This document shows, in pieces, positions 13,517-14,089 of a DNA stretch of 34,523 nucleotides (position 1 is its first letter; every line of letters starts with the position of its first letter). The stretch comes from Gammaproteobacteria bacterium. Its GTDB lineage: Bacteria; Pseudomonadota; Gammaproteobacteria; SZUA-140. The translations under genes and the position numbers were made by a program. The notes under the pieces were generated by a model. That model was not told the origin of the DNA, did not search any database, and saw only the letters and a program-made list of their open reading frames with translations. The DNA lies in the NCBI GenBank assembly GCA_020847075.1, contig JADLCS010000081.1, positions 1 to 34,523 of the forward strand. The letters run 5' to 3'.

Positions 13517-13544
13517 GCTGGGTGGTCGTCCGGTGCTTCTGATC

Positions 13545-13570
13545 GTCATGCCCACCTACGTGGGGATGAC
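13545..13570. repeat. imperfect hairpin just after smc
   Basis: GTCATGCCCAC (13545-13555) and GTGGGGATGAC (13560-13570) pair with one mismatch and a four-base loop, 28 bp past the smc stop. There is no U-tract, so its role as terminator is uncertain. The GTCAT/ATGAC ends recall other dispersed intergenic repeats. Confidence 0.6.
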
Positions 13571-13575
13571 GGTAT

Positions 13576-13648
13576 AGGGTGGGCGCGTCTTCCATGCCCA
13601 CCGTATCGCTGAGGTCTTCCGCGTGGGCACAAACCTCGTGCCCACCCT
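13576..13648. repeat. GTGGGCAC-family double inverted repeat, copy 2
   Basis: The outer arms AGGGTGGGC (13576-13584) and GCCCACCCT (13640-13648) are perfect. The inner hairpin is GTGGGCAC (13623-13630) with GTGCCCAC (13639-13646). It has the same orientation as copy 1 at 9061-9130. Confidence 0.85.
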
Positions 13649-13673
13649 GCATGACTGCGTAAGCCTATCGAGA

Positions 13674-13751
13674 GTAGGTTGGGCTGAGCAGCGCGAAGCC
13701 CAACATTCCCGTCCAGCGGCGTTGGGCTTCATTTCGCTCAGCCCAACCTAC
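13674..13751. repeat. GTAGGTTGGG-family double inverted repeat, copy 2
   Basis: GTAGGTTGGGCTGAGC (13674-13689) and its reverse complement (13736-13751) are perfect 16-bp outer arms. GAAGCCCAAC (13695-13704) and GTTGGGCTTC (13721-13730) are the inner arms. It has the same orientation as copies 1 and 3; the spacer between the inner arms differs. Confidence 0.9.
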
Positions 13752-13774
13752 GGGATCTCCTTCCTCCGTGTGGG

Positions 13775-13836
13775 AAACCCGGGACAGATTTATTTCTATC
13801 CGCCATCGGAGGGGACAGATCTATTAATCTGTCCCC
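13775..13836. repeat. GGGGACAGA-family half element plus palindrome, copy 4
   Basis: AAACCCGGGACAGATTT followed by ATTT (13775-13795) is a solitary arm matching the arms at 13933-14044. It is followed by GGGGACAGAT (13811-13820), loop CTATTA, and ATCTGTCCCC (13827-13836), a perfect 10-bp stem. Confidence 0.85.
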
Positions 13837-13843
13837 TCAGCGC

Positions 13844-13928
13844 GTAGGTTGGGCTGAGCACCGCGAAGCCCAACAGGGCGAACCCGCGGACTTGTTCGTT
13901 GGGCTTCATTTCATTCAGCCCAACCTAC
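13844..13928. repeat. GTAGGTTGGG-family double inverted repeat, copy 3
   Basis: The outer arms are GTAGGTTGGGCTGA (13844-13857) and its reverse complement (13915-13928). The inner arms are GAAGCCCAAC (13865-13874) and GTTGGGCTTC (13898-13907). It abuts copy 4 of the GGGGACAGA family on one side and copy 5 on the other. Confidence 0.9.
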
Positions 13929-13932
13929 GATT

Positions 13933-14044
13933 AAAACCCGGGACAGATTTATTTTCCAAACCGGACGTCATTTTCTCACGCGGAGACAGATTCATGGATC
14001 CGTCCCTTCGATGGCCGGCGGAAAATAAATCTGTCCCGGGTTTT
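13933..14044. repeat. GGGGACAGA-family long inverted repeat, copy 5
   Basis: Perfect 25-bp arms at 13933-13957 (beginning AAAACCCGGGACAGATTT) and 14020-14044 enclose 62 bp. Within the interior a degenerate inner pair, GGAGACAGA (13982-13990) and TCCGTCCC, lies in nested position. It ends 45 bp upstream of the ligA ATG, so the ligA promoter must lie within or before it. Confidence 0.9.
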
Positions 14045-14089
14045 ATTCCGGCTTTTCTCCCGGCCGTTTCCTCTTTACTCTAGTGCCCC

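Follow-up and report, generated by a model that had tools for sequence, protein, structure and literature searches.

Probable ancestral loss of zipA between smc and ligA in a gammaproteobacterial family, with REP elements apparently inserted later in one lineage

The window analyzed here is one entire contig of 34,523 nt from genome G000, whose 2.51-Mb assembly consists of 101 contigs and is 89.8% complete. Its forward strand carries smc, encoding the chromosome segregation protein SMC (10007..13516; Pfam SMC_N 212.8 bits, SMC_hinge 44 bits), and ligA, encoding the NAD-dependent DNA ligase (14090..16111; DNA_ligase_aden 321.9 bits together with other LigA domains). The smc stop at 13516 and the ligA ATG at 14090 enclose a gap of exactly 573 bp (13517..14089), which was characterized by its sequence, a ZipA profile, a check of open reading frames and the loci of relatives, and which is without zipA. 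A preliminary description of this DNA had reported a repeat-filled gap of 573 bp with no ZipA-like frame in it. Both statements held: palindromic repeats take up nearly all of the gap, no frame starting within it is longer than 74 aa, and a ZipA profile search of the window gave no match. Rfam gave no match in 13400-14200 up to E 0.1, on which ground a structured RNA in the gap was rejected. Two tandem repeats were seen elsewhere in the window, one of AATCTTGTCCGG with 2.8 copies directly upstream of smc (9941-9973) and one of 102 bp with 1.8 copies within long open frames (26639-26824).

Seven direct-repeat families and 12 inverted pairs were found in 13300-14300, and the repeats of the gap far exceed chance expectation. 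AGGTTGGGCTGA occurs in six copies in the window versus 0.09 expected, and GGGACAGATTTATTTT in six copies (at most 3 mismatches) versus 0.01 expected. A single strand of the gap folds at z = -14, much better than shuffles. Adjoining the end of smc is the palindrome GTCATGCCC...GGGGATGAC (13543..13573), which was recognized by sequence, alignment and fold; the alignment places a similar sequence at the equivalent position in the same-genus relative G001, whose LigA and SMC are 91% and 92% identical, respectively, to those of G000. Most of the gap consists of two GTAGGTTGGGCTGAGC dimers, two GGGACAGATTTATT elements and an inverted pair of AGGGTGGGC. The inverted pair, AGGGTGGGC...GCCCACCCT, lies at 13576..13648 (pair I5). 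The dimers, which are putative GTAG-tagged REP dimers, lie at 13673..13752 (GTAGGTTGGGCTGAGC...GCTCAGCCCAACCTAC; pair I4) and at 13843..13929 (pair I6 and direct family D2). The first GGGACAGATTTATT element and its inverted partner occupy 13775..13838 (pairs I9 and I10), and the second, a GGGACAGATTTATTTT element at 13929..14048 (pair I2), has 29-nt arms that are 97% complementary.

Genome motif counts were obtained for both the dimers and the elements. With at most 2 mismatches, the GTAG motif (a 17-mer) has 81 copies in the genome and the GGGACAGATTTATTTT motif has 112; the reversed-pattern control gave 0 in each case. Within the window, additional copies of both repeat kinds lie beyond the gap, at 9243-9316 and 18246-18306. 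A GGGACAG element is common to G000 (18246) and G001 (8572 in locus L190), in each about 4.16 kb past the ligA start. Members of the genus thus share some copies, but those between smc and ligA were not found in G001.

GTAG-tagged REP elements are described in the available part of PMC3733652 as dispersed elements with a GTAG end and a palindromic body, forming head-head dimers whose partners are 20-100 bp apart. The elements of the gap are alike in all of these respects insofar as that text covers them: GTAGGTTGGGCTGAGC with its inverted partner has a palindromic body that is tagged at one end with GTAG, the dimers are head-head, and the 81 copies are both numerous and dispersed. They differ in that several repeat kinds are stacked here within one gap. 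The GTAG elements were assigned by make-up and not matched to any numbered GTAG family, and the available text of PMC3733652 does not contain 'gtagg'. The gap repeats are best described as dispersed REP elements, with a make-up fitting that of GTAG-tagged REP dimers.

The genome has three IS200-like transposase genes over the Pfam cut-off. One of them, with a Y1_Tnp match of 66 bits (G000:C43:23965-24303), has inverted GGGACAG elements on both sides, similar to the RAYT/REPtron arrangement in the available parts of PMC2817692 and PMC3116915, the gene here being assigned through Pfam Y1_Tnp only. At locus L259, no transposase flanked by the GTAG kind was found, and the sole transposase link of that kind is one sub-threshold Y1_Tnp match with a dimer nearby. 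We infer that such transposases mobilize these repeats. The gap repeats appear to be ordinary mobile REP insertions and not the cause of the zipA loss.

The usual gene order had been given as smc-zipA-ligA, and this was verified among 80 named loci containing a LigA relative. In 24 of them, ligA has smc upstream. All 23 of these that lie outside the family have a ZipA frame between the two genes; the remaining one of the 24 belongs to the same-genus relative (L031) and is without zipA. Relatives with zipA have about 600-1300 bp between smc and ligA. Compared with the gammaproteobacterial smc-zipA-ligA arrangement (and its divergent betaproteobacterial form), the order and strand of smc and ligA are kept here, but zipA is gone and the two genes are adjacent. 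Within the family, a group of uncultured gammaproteobacteria, smc is directly upstream of ligA in seven of 19 ligA loci, none of which has zipA; in the other 12, smc is not just upstream, either because the locus is rearranged or because the contig is too short. The zipA-free junction was seen in five of the seven family genera only. Upstream neighbors of ligA in the other family loci include a PilZ-domain protein (G003 and G014) and an ABC transporter (G002). Close relatives without zipA exist at both genus and family level, but the idea that they never had the gene at this site does not stand, because the outgroups carry it there, which argues for a loss.

To follow zipA beyond the locus we used two profiles, ZipA_C (PF04354, cut-off 23 bits) and a second one built from 25 ZipA domains of the class. 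PF04354 gave no match in the window's own genome. It gave none over the cut-off in the 20 family genomes (own included), which are drafts of 66-99% completeness, and it exceeded the cut-off in 27 of the 35 genomes from elsewhere in the class (55 genomes searched in all). In the 20 family genomes the second profile gave one match of 12.4 bits (E 0.18) and nothing better. Sub-cut-off PF04354 matches were seen in G002 (14.0 bits) and G019 (12.3 bits); both were rejected as ZipA for being far below 23 bits, and the 179-aa frame of G002 is also unlike ZipA by eye. The proteins encoded after smc in rearranged family genomes did not match ZipA, and different genes follow smc in G003, G008, G011, G014 and G018. 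In G017, G013 and G015 (L212, L214 and L216), a protein of about 280-300 aa is encoded directly 3' of smc, in the place of zipA. It has one N-terminal hydrophobic stretch and a FlgD_ig-like end scoring 23.6 bits, below the cut-off of that profile. Its role as a ZipA substitute was not supported, given the sub-cut-off FlgD_ig-like match and the other genes found after smc elsewhere. At the sensitivity of these profiles, zipA is absent from the locus and across the family. The preliminary description had noted that zipA was missing between smc and ligA and had left it either lost or moved. The absence was borne out and extended to the rest of the genome, and loss was upheld; a relocated zipA was rejected, as neither profile had a match over its cut-off in any family genome.

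A ZipA present in the family at another site and diverged past profile detection is an improbable alternative. It would be in keeping with the fast divergence of ZipA_C, with the scores of only about 28-65 bits that betaproteobacterial copies reach with the class profile, and with a kept FtsZ tail, although FtsA needs this tail too. It conflicts with the absence of any match over 14 bits to two profiles, and the genes after smc in rearranged genomes are unlike ZipA. Moreover, the gaps of relatives (about 50-120 bp) are too short for any ZipA, so that both a move and divergence would be needed.

The same gaps bear on the proposal, made in the preliminary description, that the repeat island is a deletion scar, with repeat insertion or recombination having deleted zipA. 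The repeats are located exactly at the expected place of zipA, and G004, also without zipA, has one GTAG motif in its gap of about 457 bp; nevertheless, the other relatives contradict the proposal. In G001 the smc-ligA gap is about 121 bp, without zipA, and no repeats were found in it. G005, G009, G010 and G012 likewise have no zipA, their gaps are roughly 50-115 bp (ligA starts estimated by alignment), and their fetched loci contain no copy of either dispersed motif with at most 1 mismatch. The loss of zipA extends to the whole family, unlike the repeats, which also lie in many other places in this genome; a scar would require that all relatives with clean gaps had lost the repeats again. We consider this origin of the gap very improbable. 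Since the closest relatives are zipA-free with short gaps and that of G001 is clean, the loss should be older than the repeats, and the comparison of loci places the repeat insertion later. Least credible of all is the absence of zipA from the assembly only, through incompleteness or a mis-join: the assembly has 101 contigs and a completeness of 89.8%, but smc and ligA are on one contig, the zipA-free junction recurs in seven family genomes, and all 20 family genomes, several of them 95-99% complete, lack a match over the cut-off.

In a tree built from SMC and LigA, 14 family genomes formed one clade (SH-aLRT 100) among 16 zipA-bearing rows. This tree covers 14 of the 20 family genomes (G007 and G015-G019 were left out) and 16 zipA-bearing loci. 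Since the family groups together in this tree among lineages that carry zipA, a single ancient loss, predating the radiation of the family, would be the simplest reading, though not a proven one. LigA-only trees (87 rows and 38 rows, the thorough search of the latter being incomplete) did not resolve the deep forks, and the family was not one clade in them. In both, the zipA-bearing locus L032 stands beside the genus of the window (support 94, not starred); L032 is outside the SMC and LigA tree because just 97 SMC residues are present. It is possible that L032 represents a zipA-bearing member of the family, in which case there was more than one loss. Thus zipA may have been lost more than once inside the family.

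The preliminary description had suggested that division relies on FtsA alone. FtsA is present in the window's genome, with a profile match over the cut-off, and in 19 of the 20 family genomes, the exception being G012 (81% complete). The comparison of FtsA sequences covered 17 of the 20 from the family and, from genomes with zipA, the 12 that were among the 30 loci listed. All 17 family sequences have R at position 286, as do 11 of the 12 others. R286W is the E. coli ftsA substitution that bypasses ZipA, according to the available parts of PMC5832921 and PMC11323482. Neither R286W nor a similar bypass substitution was found in the 17 family sequences. Near-fixed differences occur only at E. 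coli positions 75, 225 and 262 and are also present in some zipA-bearing genomes; a bypass substitution in FtsA was rejected on these grounds and on the R at 286 in all 17. At the other positions, which we take to be those of known bypass substitutions, family FtsA is much as in zipA-bearing relatives. The C-terminal amphipathic helix of family FtsA looks kept.

Of 17 family loci, 16 contain ftsZ, and each of these encodes an intact FtsZ tail. The residue before PAF is V (DVPAF or EVPAF) in 14 of these 16 loci and I in G000 and G001. Among the 12 zipA-bearing genomes, the tail could be read in 10, nine with I and one with V. This I to V change (loci L227-L256) is therefore seen in 14/16 family versus 1/10 zipA-bearing tails, and the genus of the window keeps I. 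SepF (PF04472) was not over its cut-off in any of the 20 family genomes, with a best score of 16.9 bits, and was rejected as a substitute tether.

From these sequences, it is most likely that FtsA alone tethers FtsZ in the family. FtsA as the only recognized FtsZ tether is, we infer, the best-supported reading. The same holds for E. coli with ftsA R286W and for cable bacteria, which are without zipA and for which the available part of PMC7873302 makes the same FtsA-only inference. Unlike the E. coli variant, however, family FtsA keeps R at 286. We would give even odds to the idea that the family divides without ZipA by means of an E. coli-like FtsA without R286W, such that native FtsA needs no ZipA or an unrecognized protein substitutes for it, and that the change from DIPAF to DVPAF is a relic of a relaxed ZipA contact.

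Our main reading, to which we assign a probability of roughly 85%, combines an ancestral family loss of zipA, FtsA-only tethering, and a much later REP insertion in this lineage. The family ancestor would have lost zipA from smc-zipA-ligA, and smc and ligA would have ended up joined. FtsZ would be tethered by FtsA alone, with the amphipathic helix in the membrane and FtsA holding the intact FtsZ tail. Much later, and in this lineage only, GTAG-tagged dimers and GGGACAG elements would have landed in the gap and lengthened it, the REP spread probably proceeding via IS200-like/RAYT-type transposases.

ZipA, an essential protein in E. coli, is often taken as a standard part of the gammaproteobacterial divisome. 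Families that cleanly dropped zipA yet keep FtsA and the FtsZ tail offer natural tests of the role and dispensability of ZipA. In titles and abstract openings of the open literature, the terms we used retrieved no report that a free-living family of Gammaproteobacteria has lost zipA. We also examined a class sample of 377 genomes, comprising our own and others at least 95% complete. The ZipA cut-off was passed by 320 and failed by 57. Fourteen non-family genomes without ZipA over the cut-off were examined, and 10 had a ligA match. In G022, G099 and G115 (L271, L273 and L270), which represent three other families, smc lies directly before ligA and no zipA match is present in the locus. These zipA-free junctions in three more families point to recurrent loss rather than to a new system, and indicate that zipA loss from the smc-ligA site is recurrent in the class. 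Recurrence makes the loss less surprising, but it yields several natural systems in which the dispensability of ZipA can be tested. In the same class sample, G301 has two ZipA_C matches in 946-aa frames of equal length, separated by less than 2 kb of the same contig.
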